The translations under genes were made by a program, and so were the position numbers. The notes beneath the pieces were generated by a model. The model saw only the letters and a list, made by a program, of their open reading frames with translations. It did no database searches and had not been told where the DNA came from. Below, piece by piece: positions 4,328 to 58,930 of a DNA stretch of 64,000 bases (position 1 is the first letter of the stretch; each line of letters starts with the position of its first letter). The DNA comes from Ignavibacteria bacterium (GTDB lineage: Bacteria > Bacteroidota > Ignavibacteria > Kapaibacteriales > Kapaibacteriaceae), in NCBI GenBank assembly GCA_947495975.1, contig CANMBE010000003.1:62001-126000 (forward strand). The letters are read 5' to 3'.

Positions 4328-7300
4328 ATGAAACATCGTTCGTTTGTGTTGTGTATTTGCTTAACAGTGCTGTTCCTCAACTCTACCATCGCATCAGCTC
4401 GTATAGATACTGTGGGACGAGACAACGGCTCTCCGGGCCCAACAAATCCTATCCGAAATCAATGGGAAGAATCGGTAATTCTTAGTCCGGGCAGACCATG
4501 CATCCTGAAGAAGATCCTCGTGTACTATGGAGCAGGCACCGGTACAGATGAGATACGCATCACAGGAGACGCTTCAGAAGGCACCATACCACCTTCACAA
4601 TTCTGTTTCTCGTATAACACGCTTGCAGTCTTGCCCGTGTCTGTTGTTGGCACCGGATGGATGGAGATCGATGTACGCGCTCATGGTATCATCATCGGTG
4701 GCTACGATCGAATCGTGGTACAACATCTCATGAGGACCGGTGGACCGGTATGGTCACAAGACAACAACAGTCAAACTGACATCACGTCCTTCGTCTATGA
4801 CCCCATCACTCCCAACCCGAATTTCTTTAATATCCCAGGCATCTACTATCGGTCTACGGGCGATTACATGGTCCGCCTCGTTGTAGAAAACGAATACGAT
4901 TTCCGTCCCGCCCCCGTGATCACCGATGTCTCAAAAGCTATGGGGCTTATCAATACCGACGGCTCGGCTATCGCTGCCGATCATGCCAGCATTGTTGATT
5001 GGGACAACGATGGATATGATGATGTGTGCATTGGATCTTTGTTCTTTCATAACGAACGGGGCGAACGCTTTGCGCGCGCGCCGCTCCCGATGCAAGGAGG
5101 CCCAACATCGTGGGCCGATGCCGACAACGATGGAGACATGGATTGCTTTGTTGCAGCCGGGAACACGAATGACAAGCTTTGGCGTAATGACGGCAACGGG
5201 ACATTTGTAGACGCTACTGCTACGTCGAGAATCACCAATGATGCACCCACCGTTACTGCACTGTGGTTTGACATGGATCATGATGGCGATCTCGATCTCT
5301 TCCTTGGCAACGGTCGCCGAGAAGTAAGCGGCCAGGAAACCTACTTTCAAGACAAGCTGTGGCGTAATGATGGTGGCATGGTCTTCGCGGACGTTACTAC
5401 TCCGTCGGGAATCGCTGCGGGAGAGCCAAGCCCCTTCTATGATACATGGGGCTCATCGTTGTGTGACTTCAATGACGACGGTTGGACGGACATCTTTGTA
5501 GCTACCTATCGCCTCGCACCGGACAGGCTCTATCGCAACAACAAGAACGGGACGTTCACCGAAGTCTCCCGGCAAACAGGCGCAATTGGGATACCGACAA
5601 CGCAGCCCGACTATTTTGGACATGGTATGGGAAGTGATTGGGCAGACATCGACAACGATGGCGACCTCGATTTGGCCGTTGGTAATCTTGGCCACCCAGA
5701 TTCACGTGCCCAATACTCTAACCCATCACTCATCCTCCGCAACACCGGTACGAACGCCAGTCCAACGTTTACACATTGGTATAGCACAGACGCACAAGGC
5801 ACCCTCCGATGGCATGGCGTAAAGTTCCGAGAGATGAATGCAGGAATGTGCTTTGGAGATCTAGATCTGGATGGAAGTGCGGATCTCTGGCACGGGCAGA
5901 TCTCGTATGAAGCCTTCGGTGCAGGCGCCACCCGCTATGCCCACCTATACTTTGGTTCACCCATACCAAGTACTTCCTATGTTGATCGTGCCTGGGAGAC
6001 TGGCCTTTTTATCCATGGCGCATGGACAGCTGTTCGCTTGGATGTTGACCGCGACGGAGATCTCGATCTTCTTTGTTCCAGTGGTACAGAGAATGTAAAG
6101 CTCTTCCGGAACGATGTACCGAAGTTGGGCAACGGCATTACGCTCCGCCTACACGACGTATCTGCCGGAGCTCATCACGATGCGTATGGTGCGCACGCGT
6201 TTGTCTATGCAGGGGGCAAGCAGTTCCACAGGTGGATGCCGGGCACCGTCTCTGGTGGACGGATGTCGCAGATGTCGCATGATCTGCATTTCGGCATCGG
6301 AAGAAGCACCGTTGATAGTGTTGTGGTGCGATGGCCCAATGGCAGCATCACGCGCTTTACCAATGCCACCGAAAACAACGCTTGGATTCTCTCAAGTAGC
6401 GGAGCCGCCGTACTTCTATCGCAAGGACGCGCATTGCAGATTTCCCCTGCAACAGGATCCATCAATCATGCATCACCTGTCACTATGCAGTGGGCCGGAC
6501 CTCGTGGTTCTCTATACGATGTCCGGATTGGTCGCACACCCAACATTGAGCAGCCTCTTCGCGATGTAATGGGTCACACTAGCGACACGCTCATGTTCAC
6601 CAACGGGACTCTCGGTGCCACCTATTTTTGGCAGGTCCGTCTCAGCGGACAGCAATGGTCGCCAGTCTGGAACTTCACCATTGGTGAACCAGCAGAGCTG
6701 CCCGTGCTTCTCGATGCGCCCTCAAACCAAGCCATCAACGTCTCAATGAACGTATCACTCGTTTGGCACAGAGCAGTATATCCGGGAACGCTCTCACTTC
6801 CAGTAACGTATACCGTTGAGCTTGCATCCGATCCCAACTTCACTGTGCTACTCCAACGCTTCACCGGTGTGAGTGAAAGCGAACCAACCGTCAGAGCCGC
6901 AGGCATAGGTGCTGCAAGCCTAGTGTATTGGCGTGTTCGTGCCGACAATCAATGGCAAAACGGAAACTGGTCAGAGGTTCGCCGGTTTACCACCTACAAT
7001 GCGCCCTCGCCCGTTACTCTTGTCTTTCCGGAAAACAATGCCACAAATGTTACTATGCGTCCACGTTTTTCATGGACGCGCATGCCCGAGGTTGACAAAG
7101 GCTACGAACTAGAAGTAGATACGTTGCCAACGTTTGCAACGGCCATCAAACGTAAGGCAGGCGATACCTCTTACACCATGAGCCCGCCTCTCAAGCCATC
7201 GAAGCAATACCACTGGCGTGTTCGTGGCGTCAATCTTGCAGGTCCAGGTGTAGACAGTGAGGTCTCCGTGTTTACAACAACAACAGCAACGTCCGTACAG

Positions 7301-7486
7301 GACTTCGTTTGGAACGATGATGCACTCGCGGAAACAATTGAGATCTACGATGTGCTCGGAAGGCAGATCGCCGCTGGGCCTATAACCCAACGCGACGTTT
7401 TACTTGGGCGCGCCACTGGGCTCGTCTTCTGTGTTGAACGCTCTCGGTGGGGCAGAGTCACTGCCGTAGCACGTGTAACCCTGTAA
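4328..7486 (+). CDS. Secreted FG-GAP/ASPIC protein with fibronectin-like modules
   Basis: Large surface protein (1052 aa). Signal peptide at 1-24. Residues ~195-610 contain many FG-GAP/VCBS repeats with calcium-loop motifs such as DADNDGDMD, DMDHDGDLD and DIDNDGDLD, predicted to form a beta-propeller. An ASPIC/UnbV domain follows (VVVRWPNGSITRF near residue 660). Three fibronectin-III-like modules occupy about 700-985, each with a W/Y-x-R-V-R motif. The C-terminus (EIYDVLGRQIAAG) resembles a short type IX sorting domain. This is the CRTAC1-like family seen in environmental Bacteroidota and Planctomycetota; the ligand is unknown. AGAGGGTAAAG precedes the ATG. Probably adhesive or scaffolding, with Ca2+ likely structural (inference). 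Confidence 0.88.
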   Translation: MKHRSFVLCICLTVLFLNSTIASARIDTVGRDNGSPGPTNPIRNQWEESVILSPGRPCILKKILVYYGAGTGTDEIRITGDASEGTIPPSQFCFSYNTLAVLPVSVVGTGWMEIDVRAHGIIIGGYDRIVVQHLMRTGGPVWSQDNNSQTDITSFVYDPITPNPNFFNIPGIYYRSTGDYMVRLVVENEYDFRPAPVITDVSKAMGLINTDGSAIAADHASIVDWDNDGYDDVCIGSLFFHNERGERFARAPLPMQGGPTSWADADNDGDMDCFVAAGNTNDKLWRNDGNGTFVDATATSRITNDAPTVTALWFDMDHDGDLDLFLGNGRREVSGQETYFQDKLWRNDGGMVFADVTTPSGIAAGEPSPFYDTWGSSLCDFNDDGWTDIFVATYRLAPDRLYRNNKNGTFTEVSRQTGAIGIPTTQPDYFGHGMGSDWADIDNDGDLDLAVGNLGHPDSRAQYSNPSLILRNTGTNASPTFTHWYSTDAQGTLRWHGVKFREMNAGMCFGDLDLDGSADLWHGQISYEAFGAGATRYAHLYFGSPIPSTSYVDRAWETGLFIHGAWTAVRLDVDRDGDLDLLCSSGTENVKLFRNDVPKLGNGITLRLHDVSAGAHHDAYGAHAFVYAGGKQFHRWMPGTVSGGRMSQMSHDLHFGIGRSTVDSVVVRWPNGSITRFTNATENNAWILSSSGAAVLLSQGRALQISPATGSINHASPVTMQWAGPRGSLYDVRIGRTPNIEQPLRDVMGHTSDTLMFTNGTLGATYFWQVRLSGQQWSPVWNFTIGEPAELPVLLDAPSNQAINVSMNVSLVWHRAVYPGTLSLPVTYTVELASDPNFTVLLQRFTGVSESEPTVRAAGIGAASLVYWRVRADNQWQNGNWSEVRRFTTYNAPSPVTLVFPENNATNVTMRPRFSWTRMPEVDKGYELEVDTLPTFATAIKRKAGDTSYTMSPPLKPSKQYHWRVRGVNLAGPGVDSEVSVFTTTTATSVQDFVWNDDALAETIEIYDVLGRQIAAGPITQRDVLLGRATGLVFCVERSRWGRVTAVARVTL

Positions 7487-28286: not shown

Positions 28287-31200
28287 TCACTTCTCGGGAG
28301 GGAGGTGAAAAAGCCGAGGTGCGCGTCCGTTCACGGCAACACACAGGATATCTGACGCGCCAGCGATAGGCAGTATTGCCATTTGTCTTACTTCATACGG
28401 AGCAGTAAATCCACTTTCTTGTGGTCCTAGTGGGGTTAGAGAGCCCCTTCCGTCATTTATCAGAACAAGACCAATGCCGGCATCATAGGCAATGTTGTCG
28501 CCATCTGCCGTCTTTGTGTTGCCAGCTACAACAACATCCATATCTCCATCAGCATCCAAATCACGAGTAATAATTGCCGTAATGGGAGATATCTGTGCAA
28601 GGTCTGGAAGTGATTGTGCCGTAAACCGACCCTTCTGATTTATAAACACGCACGATGCAAACTCCCGAGCAACAAGAGCACGTGCGCTGTCCTTGCGTCC
28701 GGATGGAATGATATCATCAATCCCTGCAACGGCAAACTGAGCATAGGTATTGAATTTGCGTGTTAGCGCTGGCATGTGTTGCATGAGCGTCTGTCTTCCG
28801 CGCGTCGGCACGCGCTTGCCATCCACAACGTAGGTAACGATGGGATCAATAGAGCCGTTATCGTCAAAGTCATCAACGTAGCAGATAAGAGGCTTGCCAG
28901 GCTCAGGGGCAAACCGACAATTGAGTCCAACATTGCCAGCAATGAGATCAAGGTCTCCATCGTTGTCGATGTCAACTGCATGAACTGCAGACCACCAACC
29001 TTCATGGTCACTCATACCCCATTCATCGCTTGCATCTTTGAATCTACCTTTTGTGTTTATCCAGATGCGTGGCGTCATCCATTCACCAACCACAATAAGA
29101 TCTGCGTCTTTATCGCCGTCAATATCTGCCCAGATAGCACGCGTTGTCATTCCTACGAGAGATAGACCCGGGGCCATTTCATCTGTGACGTCTTTGAACT
29201 TGCCTTTATCATTTCGGTAGAGAATGCTTCGAGCTAGATGAGGGAATTTCCCTGGCGTAATGCGTCCACCAATGAAGAGGTCTGCATCACCATCAAGATC
29301 ATAGTCGTTAACCTCAACGCATGAGCCAGATATATTTCCACCAGGCAATCCTCCTACTACACGTTTGAATTGCCCCTTACCATCATTTCGGTAGAGTCTA
29401 TCTTCTAGCTCAGGATCATCTTCATCAAACTCGGAACCGCCTGAGATCACAACTAGGTCTAAGTCTTTATCTCCGTCTATGTCTACCAACGCCACATCAA
29501 CATCTTCTGCTTCTACAACATCGTCTATACCACATGCAAAAGCTTCAAATTTCTCGTTCGGTCTTTGAAGAAAACATTGCGTGGCTTGATATTTGGGTCC
29601 GGTCACTATCACGTCTGCAAATCCATCCCCGTTAATATCTCCTACTGCTAATCCAGGTCCATCCTTCGAGAATCGATATGGAAGGAGTCTCTCTCGCTTA
29701 AAGTCGTCATACGAATTTTCTTGGTGCCGAAATGGAATCGTTGCTTCACGCAGCTTCCCCATGATCGTGGGCTTCTTGGCAGGGGGCAACCATGTTGGAG
29801 AATCCGAAGGCATGGTTATTGTTGTGTATGATTTTGCGATAAGCTTTGTGTGCTTGCTTACAGTTCCCGTAGGCCACCGTACAACAATAGAATCAACAAC
29901 ATCTTGCTTGGACAACCCAATATGTATGCGCGTATCCGATGTAGAAAGGAAACCTCGTGCCGCCATTACTTCGCGCACGATAGTTGCGCCCCCTGAATAC
30001 ACGGTTACGCGCGCTCCTATTGCCGTATAATTGGCGCTACCACCGCGAAGAGAAACACCTATCCAATTAGCCGAGTGATCGAATGGCTGAATAGTTCGGT
30101 TCATGAACACAGTGGCGGTTGTGTCTGTGTTGTTAACGATGAGATCTACGTCGCCATCGTTATCAAGATCTGCCATTGCTGCGCCGTTTGACACTTCGGG
30201 ATCTGAGACTCCGCCAACAGCCGTTACATCCGAGAAGCGAAACCCACCAACGTTTCGAAAGAGAAAGTTTGAAAGCTTACTCTTTGGCATTTGTTTATAA
30301 GCATCAGTTTGCGCTGCGTCTGATTTGGCAAAGAGATTGTTTGCATAGTCCTGATCGCCCAAGTCTCTCTTTGTACCATTCGTGATAAAGAGATCTTGTC
30401 GGCCATCGAGATCAAAGTCCCCCGCAAGAACACACCAGCTCCAATCCGTGGCGGCCACGCCCGCCATGTAACACACATTGGAAAATCTGCCGTTGCCCCG
30501 ATTCAAGTGCAATGCATTGTGTACACGCTGAGTTGAGTCGAAAAACGGACCGTAGATGGACATGCCACCTAACTGGGTCTGCCTTCTATAGTTTTCTCTT
30601 GGCAACATGTCAAGAGTGATCACATCTACCAAACCGTCTCCATCTAGGTCTGCTATATCACTGCCCATCGATGCCCAAGACATATTTGCCATTGCATTTG
30701 CAGAAGAGTCACCAAACGTACCGTCGCCAGAATTCATCCACACCTTATCACGTTCTTCAAAATCATTAGTAACGAATACATCTAACCAGCCATCATTGTT
30801 GAGGTCGCCAATGCTAGCACTCAGGCCATACCCCTTATCTAAAATTCCAGCACTCGCGGTTACATCAGCAAACACGCCATTGCCATCATTGCGGAAGAGT
30901 CGATCTGACACACCAGGGTTGAGATAACCTTGACGCCGCGGTTCGCCGCTATTAACGAGGAACACATCTAAGTCGCCGTCTCGGTCATAGTCAAATGCGT
31001 ACGCACTTGTTGAAAAGACAGCAACGCTTAATGCTGAGCCAATTGACCTGTCAGCGAACGTACCGTTGCCGTTATTGACAAATAGTCTATTTGGTTCATA
31101 CCTACGACAAATGTAAACGTCTGCGTAACTATCTCCGGTTAGGTCCGCGATGAGGATACCAGTATTGATCTTGGAGTCAAGAATTTGAAGTCCACTCTTT

Positions 31201-31490
31201 GAGCTCACATCTTCAAATCGCATTCCGCCTTTGTTTCGGTAATGCGTAATGCCCGATGACGTGCTCGTGAACACTACATCAAGTAAGCCGTCACTGTCTA
31301 AATCTCCAACGCCTACACCGCCGCCATTGTATGCATAAAAATCTGTTAGGACATTATAAGAGTTTGACTCAACGATATCATTGCGGAACGCAATGCCAGA
31401 TCGCATTGGATCTATTCGCTCAAACATTTGAGCGTGCAGTCCGACCGAAGCATAAAGTGTTATGCATGCTACAACGAGCAATACCGTCAC
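28287..31490 (-). CDS. Large secreted FG-GAP/ASPIC-UnbV protein
   Basis: 1067 aa from a GTG at 31490, supported by GAGG seven bases upstream and a signal peptide (VTVLLVVACITLYASVGLHAQ). Residues ~40-470 are FG-GAP/VCBS repeats with many Ca-loop motifs (DLDSDGLLD, DYDRDGDLD, DLNNDGWLD). An ASPIC/UnbV domain lies near 475-560 (IVVRWPTGTVSKHTK). A second series of repeats fills 600-1060 (DINGDGFAD, DYDLDGDAD, DLDADGDMD). No obvious type IX sorting domain is seen at the C-terminus (FHLPPEK), unlike the other large exported proteins. It is the last gene of a five-gene leftward run, 32 nt after the LptF/G gene. Confidence 0.88.
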   Translation of the reverse strand: MTVLLVVACITLYASVGLHAQMFERIDPMRSGIAFRNDIVESNSYNVLTDFYAYNGGGVGVGDLDSDGLLDVVFTSTSSGITHYRNKGGMRFEDVSSKSGLQILDSKINTGILIADLTGDSYADVYICRRYEPNRLFVNNGNGTFADRSIGSALSVAVFSTSAYAFDYDRDGDLDVFLVNSGEPRRQGYLNPGVSDRLFRNDGNGVFADVTASAGILDKGYGLSASIGDLNNDGWLDVFVTNDFEERDKVWMNSGDGTFGDSSANAMANMSWASMGSDIADLDGDGLVDVITLDMLPRENYRRQTQLGGMSIYGPFFDSTQRVHNALHLNRGNGRFSNVCYMAGVAATDWSWCVLAGDFDLDGRQDLFITNGTKRDLGDQDYANNLFAKSDAAQTDAYKQMPKSKLSNFLFRNVGGFRFSDVTAVGGVSDPEVSNGAAMADLDNDGDVDLIVNNTDTTATVFMNRTIQPFDHSANWIGVSLRGGSANYTAIGARVTVYSGGATIVREVMAARGFLSTSDTRIHIGLSKQDVVDSIVVRWPTGTVSKHTKLIAKSYTTITMPSDSPTWLPPAKKPTIMGKLREATIPFRHQENSYDDFKRERLLPYRFSKDGPGLAVGDINGDGFADVIVTGPKYQATQCFLQRPNEKFEAFACGIDDVVEAEDVDVALVDIDGDKDLDLVVISGGSEFDEDDPELEDRLYRNDGKGQFKRVVGGLPGGNISGSCVEVNDYDLDGDADLFIGGRITPGKFPHLARSILYRNDKGKFKDVTDEMAPGLSLVGMTTRAIWADIDGDKDADLIVVGEWMTPRIWINTKGRFKDASDEWGMSDHEGWWSAVHAVDIDNDGDLDLIAGNVGLNCRFAPEPGKPLICYVDDFDDNGSIDPIVTYVVDGKRVPTRGRQTLMQHMPALTRKFNTYAQFAVAGIDDIIPSGRKDSARALVAREFASCVFINQKGRFTAQSLPDLAQISPITAIITRDLDADGDMDVVVAGNTKTADGDNIAYDAGIGLVLINDGRGSLTPLGPQESGFTAPYEVRQMAILPIAGASDILCVAVNGRAPRLFHLPPEK

Positions 31491-50858: not shown

Positions 50859-52142
50859 CTAGGGTTTTTTGAATTCGGGCACTAATCCCTGCCAGCATTC
50901 CCAATAATCGCGTTGGAGTTCTGCCGCAGACATAGCAAAGGCAGTTGGCCTTGCTACGAAACGCGTCTCAAACATAAACGCCATCGTATCCTCTAGGCGA
51001 GTCGGCTGAAGGTCCGCTTGCGTGGACCTCTTGTAGGTTTCGGCATCTGGGCCGTGTCCGCTCATGCAATTGTGCAACGAAGACCCTCCAGGTATAAACC
51101 CACCACCTTCTTTGGCATCGTAGACGCCAGCGATAAGCCCCATATACTCATTCATGAAGTTGCGATGAAACCATGGTGGGCGGAAGGTGTGTTCGGCAAC
51201 CAACCAACGTGGAGGGAAAATCGCAAAATCAACATTTGCTGTGCCAAGGGTGTCTCCCGGCGACGTAAGTACGGTGTAAATCGAAGGATCCGGATGGTCG
51301 AACGTAACCGTATTGATGCACTGAAACCTGCGCAGGTCATACTTGTACGGCGCGTAATTACCGTGCCATGCCACTACATTCAGGGGCGAATGGTCATACG
51401 TGCCACGCCATAGATTTCCCTGAAACTTTGTGATTACTTCAAATTCGCCTGTACGCTCTTCGAACCACGCCTCAGGAATGAGGAAGTCGCGAGGATATGC
51501 AAGGCCATTTGCGCCAATTGGGCCCAGATCTGGCAGTCTGAGGTAGGCGCCGTAGTTCTCAAGCATATATCCACGCACATCGCCGCTTACTTCAACGCGA
51601 AACTTGATTCCTCGTGGTATCACGCATATTTCTTGAGGCTCTACATCAATAATCCCCATTTCCGTAAGGATTCTCAGCGAGCCTAGCTGCGGTACAATGA
51701 GAAGCTCACCATCGGCATTATAAAAGAAGCTATCTGTCATCGACGTGTTCGCTGCGTATACATGCAGCGCAACTCCCGTGTGAGTTGTGAGGTCTCCATT
51801 GCCTGCCATCGTCACTATGCCTTGCACAAATGTTGTGGGCTTTGTAGGCAACGGTAAGGGGCTCCAGCGGAGCTGGTTTGGCGTGGTTTCTACTTCATGA
51901 AACGGCGTAGAACGTATGAGCCCATTATCGATTCGCTCATACGGCTGGTGCACAACGGACGGGCGGATGCGATACATCCACGACCGCTTATTTTGTGCTC
52001 GAACGGCGGTAAATGCCGTTCCATTGATCTGCTCAGCATACAGACCAAGAGGGGGTTTTTGCGGGGAATTCTGCCCAAAAGGGAGAGCCCCTTTCACTGC
52101 CTCTGTTGCAACGTCGTTACCGAAGCCACTCATATACCCCAT
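50859..52142 (-). CDS. hmgA: Homogentisate 1,2-dioxygenase
   Basis: 427-aa iron dioxygenase that opens the ring of homogentisate in tyrosine/phenylalanine breakdown. N-terminus [21 protein letters not shown] matches the family's SGFGNx(F/H)xSEA start; iron ligands lie in [20 protein letters not shown] and [16 protein letters not shown]. fahA and maiA are not adjacent. Together with paaA it indicates aromatic amino-acid use and aerobic metabolism. Confidence 0.96.
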
Positions 52143-54751: not shown

Positions 54752-56029
54752 ATGAAACTGCAACCAATTCTAGATGAACTCTTTGCAATGACGTTTCACG
54801 CCGGCATCAAGCCCGGTTTAGAGCGCATAGAAGATCTATGCTTGGGTCTTAACAACCCTCATCTTCGCTATCCGATCATTCATGTTGCAGGCACGAATGG
54901 CAAGGGGTCTACGTGTTCTATTCTTGCATCTATTCTAACACGGGCTGGCTACAAGACCGGGCTGTATACTTCACCGCACATCATGCGATTTAATGAACGC
55001 ATACGTGTTGATGGTGTGACAATTTCGGATGAAGACGTAGTACGAATAGCGAGCCCCTTGATGGGAAAAGCCCGAGGAAATGGCGGCACGTTCTTCGAAG
55101 TGACAACTGCCATGGCATTCCAATATTTTGCGGAGCGCCGTGTTGATGTTGCAATCATTGAAACGGGGCTCGGTGGTCGCCTCGATGCCACAAACATTTG
55201 CCAACCGTTTCTGTCCATCATTACCCAGATCGATATAGATCACACCGAGTATCTCGGCACAACGTTAGAGTTGATAGCAGGTGAGAAGGCAGGCATCATC
55301 AAGCAAGGGGCGCCTGTTGTGATCGGCCACCGTGAGCCCCTTCCCATACTTCGAGGCGTTTTCGAACGCAAGGCAGAGAATGTGTACACGGAGATTCAGT
55401 TTGCCGAAGATGCAGTCTTTGTGGAGTTAGATACGATTCATCCCGACATGACGATGACTGTAAGTGTTGTTGGCAATGACGAGTTGCGCTACTACACCAC
55501 GGACCTTTGTGGTAAACATCAGACGATGAACATTGCAACGGCTATAGCTGCACTTCCATTCATACGCTCATTGTACTTCGTGGATGAAGAGCATGTGCGA
55601 GAAGGGCTGCAGAACGTTACGAAGATTTCAGGACTCTATGGTAGGTGCCAACTCATAGCCAACGATCCGTTCACGGTGCTTGACGTGTCACACAATCCTG
55701 CGGGCGTTGCAGCACTCTGCGAGACTCTCTTTGCATCGGGACGTGAGCAACAGAGCATGCAAGTTGTGTTTGGTGCGATGGCTGACAAAGACGTGGTCTC
55801 CATGCTAAAGGAAATAGTACCAATGGCGCACACAATTCACTTGTGCGCGCCCTCAATTGCACGATCAATGTCCGTTGAAAATCTCGCAAAAGTTGCAACT
55901 GCACAAGGCATCACAAATACCGCGCTCCATGAGAGTGTATCTCATGCATACCATGCAGCGCGCGCGCATGGCCCAACCGTTGTGTGCGGCAGCTTTCATG
56001 TTGCAGACGAAGTGATGCTCGTGCGTTAG
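54752..56029 (+). CDS. folC: Folylpolyglutamate synthase / dihydrofolate synthase
   Basis: 425 aa. Mur-ligase-like ATP enzyme that adds glutamate to folates. ATP loop HVAGTNGKGSTCSILASIL (about residue 45); YTSPHIMRFNERIRVDG; ETGLGGRLDATN; and DVSHNPAGVAAL. Bacterial FolC usually performs both dihydrofolate and folylpolyglutamate synthesis. It starts 12 nt after the rpsA terminator T-run and ends in a 4-nt overlap with the convergent PAS-UbiA gene. Confidence 0.96.
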   Translation: MKLQPILDELFAMTFHAGIKPGLERIEDLCLGLNNPHLRYPIIHVAGTNGKGSTCSILASILTRAGYKTGLYTSPHIMRFNERIRVDGVTISDEDVVRIASPLMGKARGNGGTFFEVTTAMAFQYFAERRVDVAIIETGLGGRLDATNICQPFLSIITQIDIDHTEYLGTTLELIAGEKAGIIKQGAPVVIGHREPLPILRGVFERKAENVYTEIQFAEDAVFVELDTIHPDMTMTVSVVGNDELRYYTTDLCGKHQTMNIATAIAALPFIRSLYFVDEEHVREGLQNVTKISGLYGRCQLIANDPFTVLDVSHNPAGVAALCETLFASGREQQSMQVVFGAMADKDVVSMLKEIVPMAHTIHLCAPSIARSMSVENLAKVATAQGITNTALHESVSHAYHAARAHGPTVVCGSFHVADEVMLVR

Positions 56030-57282
56030 AGTACCAGAGCGATTGCGAACAATACAGCAAACACTATCTGCAAATAGATGGTATGCACGTTGGCCTTTAC
56101 AAGGCTACGATTGTTGAGATGTTTTTTCATGTAGGAAAGAATCCAACCACCGTACCCAATAGCAAGAGCGGCAACGCCGAGGAGGAATGGTTTATGGTGA
56201 TACAATCCTAGCCAAACCGACACAAGTATCGCTGAGGCAAGAAAAAAGCCATAGAACCACACGGCTGCCTGCGGTCCGAAGGTTACAACAAGGTGATTCT
56301 TTCCCGTTACTGCATCGCCTTCTGCATCAGGCACTTGGTTGATTAATAAAATGTTTGTCGTCAGCAAACCAGTAGGTATTCCCACAATAAATGCGTCGAA
56401 GGAATAGACGCCCGTCATCACGTAATACATACCGAGTGTGATGAGCGGACCAAACGTCATTCCAATGATAACTTCGCCAAGACCTTTGCGAGCAACGAGC
56501 CGAAGTGGCGGCGCTGTATAGAAATAGCCAAGGGCTAGTCCACTGAGTCCAATAACAAGCACACCTAGACCAACAGCAAATGTTACATAGACTCCAATGC
56601 AAAGGGCAATTCCTGCCAAGCACAGAGCAACATTGCGCGTTCCCTTCAAATCAATGAGCCCCATCTCTATCGCACGTGAACCACCTGAATATTGTACAAA
56701 ATATTTGGTGTTGGCTTGGTCCGTGCCACTCTTCACATCGAAGTAATCATTGAACACATTGCTTGCAAGATGTAGCAGCGAAACTCCGAGGATGGCAAGC
56801 ACTGCATACATCCATGAAATAGGCAACCCAAGAACGCCCCCTACAAATGCGATACCGATGAAGCACGGAGTGATCGCGGCCGTTATAAATGGAGCCCTTG
56901 TGATCACCAGCCACGTAATTGCCTTCGTTGCACTTGTGATGGGGACATCTACCACCGCATCGAGCTCTTCTGTTACACCACAAAATCCAATCTGAACACC
57001 ATTTCTGAAGGTTGGAGTGATGCGGATTCTCGCTCCAAATAGGTCTCCATTCTTTCGCACAAAGTTGGTCTCACCTATCCACTCTCCTTCCCTGACGGCA
57101 GTGGACAACCATATACCAAGATTTTGCAGGACAATCTGTCCGGGCGAGAATGCACTTACGCGAAGCTTGTTGATTGTCTCAACTCGATCATATCCAAACA
57201 TCGCAACAGCACCGTCACTGAAGGTCTCAATGACGCCCTCCATGTCACAAGTGATCACAGATTTATCGAGTATAGTTGCCAC
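56026..57282 (-). CDS. PAS-domain / UbiA-family prenyltransferase fusion (MenA-like)
   Basis: About 418 aa from GTG 57282, supported by GGAG seven bases upstream; longer ATG-started readings reach into the divergent purH gene. Residues ~3-112 are PAS-like (VITCDMEGVIETFSDGAVAMFGYDR, NFVRKNGDLFGARIRITPTFRNG and FCGVTEELD). Residues ~120-418 are a UbiA prenyltransferase with eight or nine helices and two Asp-rich Mg-prenyl-diphosphate motifs: NVFNDYFDVKSGTD (about 179) and NQVPDAEGDAVTGK (about 317). GSRAIEMGLI and the overall layout favour 1,4-dihydroxy-2-naphthoate prenyltransferase (MenA) over haem or ubiquinone enzymes. The PAS part probably senses redox state or a ligand and controls quinone synthesis (inference). 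No kinase or output domain is present. Confidence 0.86.
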   Translation of the reverse strand: MATILDKSVITCDMEGVIETFSDGAVAMFGYDRVETINKLRVSAFSPGQIVLQNLGIWLSTAVREGEWIGETNFVRKNGDLFGARIRITPTFRNGVQIGFCGVTEELDAVVDVPITSATKAITWLVITRAPFITAAITPCFIGIAFVGGVLGLPISWMYAVLAILGVSLLHLASNVFNDYFDVKSGTDQANTKYFVQYSGGSRAIEMGLIDLKGTRNVALCLAGIALCIGVYVTFAVGLGVLVIGLSGLALGYFYTAPPLRLVARKGLGEVIIGMTFGPLITLGMYYVMTGVYSFDAFIVGIPTGLLTTNILLINQVPDAEGDAVTGKNHLVVTFGPQAAVWFYGFFLASAILVSVWLGLYHHKPFLLGVAALAIGYGGWILSYMKKHLNNRSLVKANVHTIYLQIVFAVLFAIALVL

Positions 57283-57335
57283 GGCATAACTCCGTTTTGA
57301 TGATAGAATAATCTCGTAGCAATAATAGCTATGAC

Positions 57336-57406: not shown

Positions 57407-58930
57407 ATGAACGCACTCTTATCCGTATCGGACAAAACCGGCCTCATTGAATTTGCCCACAGTCTACACGCATTTGGTGTAAAGATTATTTCTACTGGTG
57501 GCACGGCAAAAACCCTTGCCGATGCAGGTATCCCGGTTACGAAGGTTTCAGACATAACGGGTTTTCCGGAGGTGATGGATGGCCGTGTAAAGACCTTGCA
57601 TCCAAAGATTCATGGTGGCATCCTTGCAGTGCTCAACAATGATGAGCACGTCAAACAAATGCAAGACCATGGAATTGAAAAGATCGACATTGTTGTGGTG
57701 AACCTCTATCCGTTTGAGCAGACCGCTGCACGAGATGGTGTTTCATACGATGATATTATTGAGAACATTGATATTGGTGGTCCAGCTATGGTTCGTGCAT
57801 CAGCAAAGAATCATCGATTTACCACCATCGTTGTAAATCCAGCACATTATTCAACGGTGATAGCTCATCTTTTAACAGATGGTGGAGTACCAGTATCATT
57901 CCGTGAGCAATTGGCAATGGAGGCGTTCTCGCATACAGCACAATACGACGCTCGTATTGCAGGCTATTTTGCGCAACATCTTGGACGTACGTTTCCAGAC
58001 GAAACTGCTATTCCACTACGTATTGACCAGCCACTTCGTTATGGTGAGAATCCTCATCAACAGGCTGTGCTGTACGGCACATTCACGAGCATCTTCCGTC
58101 AGCTTCACGGCAAGGAGCTTTCGTATAACAACATTCTAGATATCGATGCTGCCGCCAGATTGAGTCTAGAGTTTGAAGAGCCAACTGTTGTGATCGTTAA
58201 GCATAACAATCCCTGCGGCGTAGGTTCCGGATCACATCTTGTAGAAGCATATCAGAAGGCATTTGCTACCGACAACGTTAGCCCCTTTGGTGGAATCATC
58301 GCAGTGAACAGGCCTATCGATGTTGCATTTGCAAACGAAGTGCATTCATTGTTTGCAGAGGTACTCATTGCTCCTTCGTTTGATGAAGATGCACTTGCCA
58401 TATTGGCCAAGAAGAAGGACCGTCGTCTCATGGTCGTGGACCCACAAAAACTTCGCAATGCATCTCGCTCAGACCTGCGTTCGGTGGCAGGGGGCTTCTT
58501 GGCGCAAGAATCAGATGCGATTTTATACAATCAAGCCGACGTGCGAGTTGTAACTACCATTAAGCCAACTGATGACCAACGCGATGCGATGCTGTATGCA
58601 TGGAAGATTGCGAAGCATGTAAAGAGTAATGCAATTGTGTATGCTTCTCATGACAGATCACTTGCAATTGGTGCGGGCCAAATGTCTCGCATTGATTCTG
58701 CTCGCATTGCCGTACGCAAAGCCCAAGACGCAGGCGTCGATCTTACCGGCTGTGCTGTTGCCTCAGACGCATTCTTTCCTTTTGCGGACGGACTCCTCCA
58801 AGCAGCAGAAGCCGGTGCAGCATGCGTTATTCAACCAGGTGGCTCTGTGCGTGATGAAGAAGTGATTGCGGCTGCTAACGATAAAGGCCTAGCAATGATG
58901 TTTACCGGTACAAGGCACTTTAGACACTAG
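57407..58930 (+). CDS. purH: Bifunctional AICAR formyltransferase / IMP cyclohydrolase
   Basis: 507 aa. Last two steps of purine synthesis in the cytosol. The cyclohydrolase part (to ~residue 190) has [36 protein letters not shown] and [13 protein letters not shown]. The transformylase part has [25 protein letters not shown] and the C-terminal [11 protein letters not shown] then GTRHFRH. Normal length, no fusion. Divergent from the PAS-UbiA gene. Confidence 0.97.

Follow-up and report, generated by a model that had tools for sequence, protein, structure and literature searches.

The sensor kinases ArcB and EvgS are membrane proteins with a cytosolic PAS domain that holds two cysteines and is under quinone-pool control; as described in PMC8174306, ArcB is controlled by quinones and EvgS requires ubiquinone, in both cases via PAS cysteines, and these PAS domains drive histidine kinases. 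In PAS domains that bind FAD, a tryptophan in helix F-alpha is given as the main determinant of binding (PMC10468136), and W70 of Aer stacks on FAD (PMC9668731). A published fusion of a UbiA enzyme is that with IspH, reported among the 'Rosetta stone' proteins (PMC4746011), in which the partner is a pathway enzyme and not a PAS domain. Known control of the menaquinone pathway includes feedback by DHNA on MenD (PMC9835592), and a 2026 survey notes that numerous lineages have no known quinone pathway and proposes that alternative routes exist (PMC13386864). Here, we describe a gene from a Kapaibacteriaceae genome that joins a PAS domain to a UbiA prenyltransferase in a single polypeptide, an arrangement for which no description was found in the open-access literature searched.

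A PAS domain and a UbiA enzyme in one reading frame

The window (the whole stretch of 64,000 nucleotides that was analysed) contains an open frame that runs on the minus strand from a GTG at 57282 to a stop at 56026 and encodes a product of 418 residues. The features of the locus are as follows:

56026..57282, minus strand: PAS-UbiA fusion gene (open frame; about 60 homologues share architecture and start)
57290..57293, minus strand: GGAG Shine-Dalgarno-like motif, 7 nt 5' of the GTG (read directly from the sequence)
56965..57261, minus strand: PAS domain, residues 8-106 (Pfam, AF2 topology, Foldseek matches 3lyx, 8dik and 2gj3)
57247..57249, minus strand: Cys12, first PAS strand, A-beta (57/57 rows covering the position; AF2 strand 7-13)
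57109..57111, minus strand: Trp58, helix F-alpha (58/58 rows; aligns with the FAD-stacking Trp70 of Aer and the Trp of NifL, 2gj3)
56980..56982, minus strand: Cys101, last PAS strand, I-beta (58/58 rows; AF2 strand 96-106)
56032..56910, minus strand: UbiA membrane prenyltransferase domain, residues 125-417 (Pfam; closest solved structure UBIAD1, 8djk)
56719..56760, minus strand: first Asp-rich motif NVFNDYFDVKSGTD, residues 175-188 (N175, N178, D179, D182 and D188 invariant in 58 rows)
56314..56340, minus strand: second Asp-rich motif NQVPDAEGD, residues 315-323 (N315, D319 and D323 invariant in 58 rows)
57407..58930, plus strand: purH, divergent neighbour (Pfam; synteny kept in the relatives L036-L044)
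54752..56029, plus strand: folC, convergent neighbour (Pfam Mur ligase domains; synteny)

With purH diverging from the fusion gene and folC converging on it, its stop overlapping the fusion gene by 4 nt, the window holds no operon evidence for the fusion gene, and neither a promoter/terminator scan nor a repeat scan of the intergenic stretch gave anything informative. Elsewhere in the window, 4328-7486 and 28287-31490 encode two large FG-GAP/ASPIC-UnbV secreted-type proteins of about 1,050 residues. An hmgA-like gene (homogentisate 1,2-dioxygenase, by eye) lies at 50859-52142 on the minus strand, about 4 kb from the fusion gene. In other organisms homogentisate may serve as a quinone head group; a homogentisate- or plastoquinone-like substrate, considered on account of this gene, was rejected on the poor match of the fusion protein to the homogentisate phytyltransferase profile (E 0.016).

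The N-terminal part of the protein belongs to the PAS domains by sequence profile and fold together. Pfam places PAS_9 at residues 8-98 (E 1.4e-5, 25.7 bits, just under the cut-off of 27), and the same profile is matched by 44 of the 45 aligned homologues with a best E of 1e-11, the UbiA profile being matched by all 45. The AF2 model built from the family alignment (mean pLDDT 86) shows an N-terminal PAS fold at residues 7-106 followed by the UbiA helices; its topology is classical, with strands at 7-13, 17-21, 68-75, 81-93 and 96-106 and a helix at 48-65, mostly at pLDDT 84-95. Foldseek returned the PAS structures 3lyx, Aer (8dik) and NifL (2gj3) for the N-terminus, and UBIAD1 (8djk) and A. 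fulgidus UbiA (4tq5) for the rest of the protein.

Cys12 and Cys101 are the sole cysteines of the PAS domain and sit in its first and last strands, which are adjacent in PAS folds. Both are invariant, as is Trp58, the archaeal-labelled relative included, and further invariant PAS residues are T72, F74, K77 and G102. With two invariant cysteines the domain is a candidate for a redox-active PAS domain of the ArcB/EvgS type; its own cysteines lie in A-beta and I-beta, whereas EvgS has C671 in H-beta and C683 in I-beta. It shares its fold with NifL and Aer, and Trp58 in F-alpha, aligned with their FAD-stacking tryptophan, is the residue expected of FAD-binding PAS domains of the NifL/Aer/MmoS type; the output of the fusion is an enzyme, whereas theirs are signalling proteins. 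The secondary His and Asn contacts to FAD seen in these domains are absent from the fusion, H53 of Aer being replaced by R41 and N85 by F74, and with R115 replaced by T104 one of the four Aer FAD contacts is kept. Since the other contacts are not kept, FAD binding by the fusion PAS is a possibility rather than an established property. The domain is not of the FMN-binding LOV type, as there is no photoactive cysteine in the E-alpha region and the only cysteines are C12 and C101.

The C-terminal part is a UbiA superfamily member by its Pfam match (PF01040, residues 139-387, E 2e-30, 106 bits against a cut-off of 34.2) and by its two Asp-rich motifs and helical bundle (AF2, Foldseek). Its nearest solved structure by both sequence and fold is UBIAD1, the human MK-4 synthase, at about 20% identity and without an N-terminal PAS domain. 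The UbiA fold and both Asp-rich motifs are shared with MenA, the 1,4-dihydroxy-2-naphthoate (DHNA) polyprenyltransferase that prenylates and decarboxylates DHNA (PRK06080/TIGR00751), and the top NCBIfam matches are MenA-type (E 1e-36), yet they lie under every MenA cut-off: TIGR00751 gave 62.5 bits against 102.15, and NF004751 gave 126.5 against 264. In the UbiA tree the fusion does not group with menD-linked MenA; a menD-adjacent MenA from a Saprospirales carrier (L220) joins the unfused MenA proteins (100/99), whereas PAS-UbiA lies on another branch. By these sequence criteria the protein is a UbiA enzyme from the MenA-like side of the superfamily, and its identity as MenA is not established. 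The initial annotation of this DNA, which described a PAS-like domain of about 110 residues joined in frame to a full UbiA enzyme with both Asp motifs intact, is borne out in this respect by Pfam, AF2, Foldseek and the homologues, well past anything that chance would give, and the lack of a PAS fold in residues 1-115, one of the two outcomes it had named as refuting, did not occur; its 'MenA/UbiA-type' label holds for a MenA-like UbiA enzyme but not for MenA proper, the protein failing the MenA cut-offs and standing apart from menD-linked MenA.

Homologues, descent and split-barrel fusions

Collecting the same fusion from related genomes, as had been advised at the outset, yielded about 60 homologues of 41-79% identity with the same architecture and start. 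Their first residue corresponds to position 1, 4 or 5 of this protein, which excludes a translation start near residue 115, inside the UbiA part, the event that the initial annotation had named as fatal to the fusion. The PAS core is the most conserved part of the protein, with a mean pairwise identity of 67% compared to 59% in the UbiA core and 37% in the C-terminal part. In the host family, 19 of 23 genomes carry the fusion including its PAS part (in one it is split between two contigs), and one further genome has just a piece of it where a contig stops. Scanning named genomes added about 60 more copies, full or partial, labelled Ignavibacteria/Kapaibacterium, Flavobacteriales, Flammeovirgaceae/Marinoscillum, Saprospirales and one Euryarchaeota MAG, labels that for MAGs may be wrong in individual cases. 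A plasmid search found distant unfused MenA only.

All PAS-fused forms make up one clade of the UbiA tree, from which the archaeal-labelled L091 branches first; with the clade supported at 99/95, PAS-UbiA traces to one fusion event. L091 (5665-7287) itself encodes a single chain that combines an EF-hand pair with PAS and UbiA, and thus possibly has a calcium input too. The neighbourhoods of the fusion gene across carriers are mostly not quinone operons; in L080 it lies directly 3' of ubiE, and the gene for L101, a close relative that lacks the fusion, overlaps one for a polyprenyl diphosphate synthase. At L089 and about seven related marine loci, a 4HBT-type thioesterase gene is found immediately 5' of PAS-UbiA on the same strand, and its product could be a DHNA-CoA-type thioesterase.

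MenA-like UbiA proteins with another N-terminal domain, a PNPOx-type split barrel, were identified by Pfam, a PDB profile and AF2/Foldseek at four loci (L028, L034, L100 and L103), and by the tree these fusions have at least two independent origins. L222 and L223 group with them by tree and N-terminal extension, and such forms occur in order-mates, a Dehalococcoidia MAG and a Euryarchaeota MAG. PNPOx-type split barrels usually bind FMN or F420. Like PAS-UbiA, the split-barrel proteins have a soluble, probably cofactor-binding domain at the N-terminus, but the folds are unrelated and the fusions independent. That split barrels recur in this position suggests that the enzyme benefits from having a redox or cofactor domain at its N-terminus, as a switch or as a chemical partner.

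Quinone genes in the host genome and other carriers

The host genome has four UbiA genes: a CtaB-like one (L001) adjoining a cytochrome-oxidase-assembly-like gene, a DPPR-synthase-like one (L004) adjoining a DprE1-like gene, both named from sequence and neighbours without a family scan, the fusion, and an unfused MenA. The latter, on contig 13, scores above the MenA cut-offs and lies beside ubiE, so that the second, unfused menA that the initial annotation had proposed looking for does exist. It ends a minus-strand run (L152, 8089-11140) of an FAD amine-oxidase/phytoene-desaturase-like gene, ubiE and menA. About nine members of the host family have both the fusion and MenA, and the menA-ubiE neighbourhood was seen in about nine members despite missing MenD, MenB and MqnC.

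The searches were made by marker genes rather than whole pathways, and divergent enzymes could escape them; on this basis the host genome and its family show no recognisable DHNA-producing pathway of the kind expected beside a MenA: MenD and MqnC were found in none of the 23 host-family genomes, and MenB over its cut-off in none of the 23, ordinary crotonases being the only matches. Another set, comprising 29 fusion carriers and one PNPOx-UbiA genome, gave a single MenD match, in a genome (G064) that also has a separate MenA beside menD, and two true matches to MqnC (G065 and G068). MenD, the target of DHNA feedback, is missing from most PAS-UbiA carriers, and 45 of 48 carrier genomes are without both MenD and MqnC, although these genomes are incomplete and mutually related drafts whose counts are not independent. 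The absence is not carrier-specific, since neither gene was recognised in 25 of 37 order-mates that do not have the fusion. With no recognisable MenD, MenB or MqnC in the genome family and a separate MenA present, the claim of the initial annotation that the fusion enzyme prenylates the menaquinone head group could not be retained as an assumption.

A futalosine-type head group was rejected, as MqnC is absent and only a divergent MqnA-like protein is present. This MqnA/MqnD-like protein (L151, 6492-7232, host contig 11; PF02621 25.8 bits, cut-off 26) is encoded between TrmH-like and transaldolase-like genes (by eye), and similar proteins occur in most of the host family although MqnC is absent.

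UbiE over its cut-off was found in 35 of 48 carriers, and several carriers show no ubiE. The UbiA complement of G001, G005, G008, G010 and G019 consists of a CtaB-class protein, the fusion and one DPPR-synthase-like protein, and these genomes retain ubiE; at least five carriers, complete or near-complete members of the family, thus have the fusion as their sole candidate quinone prenyltransferase. The small marine genomes G066, G071, G073, G074 and G076, whose completeness is uncertain, contain CtaB-class UbiA and the fusion only. The CtaB-class UbiA of most genomes suggests haem-copper respiration, which would bring with it a need for quinone.

Proposed mechanism and rival explanations

The explanation we place first, tentatively and a little short of calling it probable, is that the fusion protein is a quinone head-group prenyltransferase with the PAS domain as a redox switch and a head group that is salvaged or comes from an undescribed route. 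PAS-UbiA is in this explanation a distinct, anciently fused UbiA subfamily with a cytosolic PAS domain as an obligatory part. The UbiA half, in which the active site is intact and the fold MenA-like, would couple an aromatic quinone head group to polyprenyl diphosphate. The PAS half would act as a redox switch that works through the cysteine pair on neighbouring strands, through a bound flavin or quinone, or through both; judging from its anatomy, which makes a switch plausible, and from ArcB, EvgS, NifL and Aer, it may raise or lower prenylation as the quinone pool changes state. The allosteric control put forward in the initial annotation would be of this kind and stays a hypothesis. Because neither known menaquinone pathway is recognisable in most carriers, the head group is probably imported or comes from a pathway not yet described, and prenylation would then be the entry step and a natural control point. 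Speaking for this explanation are the single origin and conservation of the fusion, the PAS fold and its invariant Cys12, Cys101 and Trp58, the carriers that retain ubiE with no other candidate enzyme, the L080 and L101 neighbourhoods, and the 45 of 48 carriers without MenD and MqnC; speaking against it are the MenA of the host genome, the similar absence among order-mates, the carriers that show no ubiE, the replaced FAD contacts and the mostly non-quinone neighbourhoods. The fusion differs from MenA in its separate clade, its PAS domain and its occurrence mostly where MenD and MqnC are unrecognisable; in the host genome itself, which has its own MenA beside ubiE, the fusion may play a secondary part or act on a different substrate.

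A switch is ranked first because PAS domains are overwhelmingly regulatory. The PAS domain could instead be a flavin or redox partner that keeps a quinone-type substrate reduced (as hydroquinone) or otherwise acts on it beside the UbiA active site, an unlikely alternative that nonetheless comes second because conservation is strict and the split barrels offer a parallel. Different redox-type domains, PAS on the one hand and split barrels from at least two independent fusions on the other, occupy the same N-terminal place, and the strictly conserved PAS core fits a catalytic or obligatory role better than that of a sensor, which usually diverges. Against such a role, PAS domains are rarely catalytic, and a flavin is putative for both the split barrel and the PAS domain, in which just one of the four Aer FAD contacts is kept.

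Less probable again is that the enzyme prenylates some other aromatic or polyol lipid instead of a respiratory quinone head group, with the PAS domain in control of that product. The failed MenA cut-offs and the position outside the menD-linked MenA clade would fit this, as would the MenA-ubiE pair that could serve quinone synthesis in the host genome and the roughly nine family members with both enzymes. It is hard to reconcile with the five or more complete or near-complete family members that keep ubiE without any other quinone-type UbiA, with the small marine genomes that have just CtaB and the fusion, and with nearest relatives and structures that are MenA/UBIAD1-like.

An ordinary quinone prenyltransferase in which PAS is merely a structural or dimerisation module is improbable: PAS domains often dimerise and any ligand here is only putative, but the invariant internal residues C12, C101, W58, T72, F74, K77 and G102 point beyond a scaffold. 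That the fusion is an artefact, be it a misassembly or an internal or wrong start codon joining two unrelated frames, has no point in its support and is ruled out for practical purposes by the recurrence of this architecture across about 60 independent genomes and contigs.

Returning to the redox-switch explanation, if the PAS domain gates the enzyme, quinone assembly would be under direct redox control inside one polypeptide. A broader proposal, plausible but to be regarded with clear doubt, is that PAS-UbiA marks an undescribed respiratory-quinone route, either obligate salvage or a third pathway, in which a PAS redox switch on the enzyme's own chain directly gates prenylation, the committed membrane step; its users would be Kapabacteria-type organisms, many small-genome marine Bacteroidota and possibly some marine archaea. 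The distribution of the fusion points to the recognised gap of lineages without a known quinone pathway (PMC13386864), and an enzyme that is conserved, amenable to testing and placed last in an alternative route of this sort would provide a handle on the route itself.
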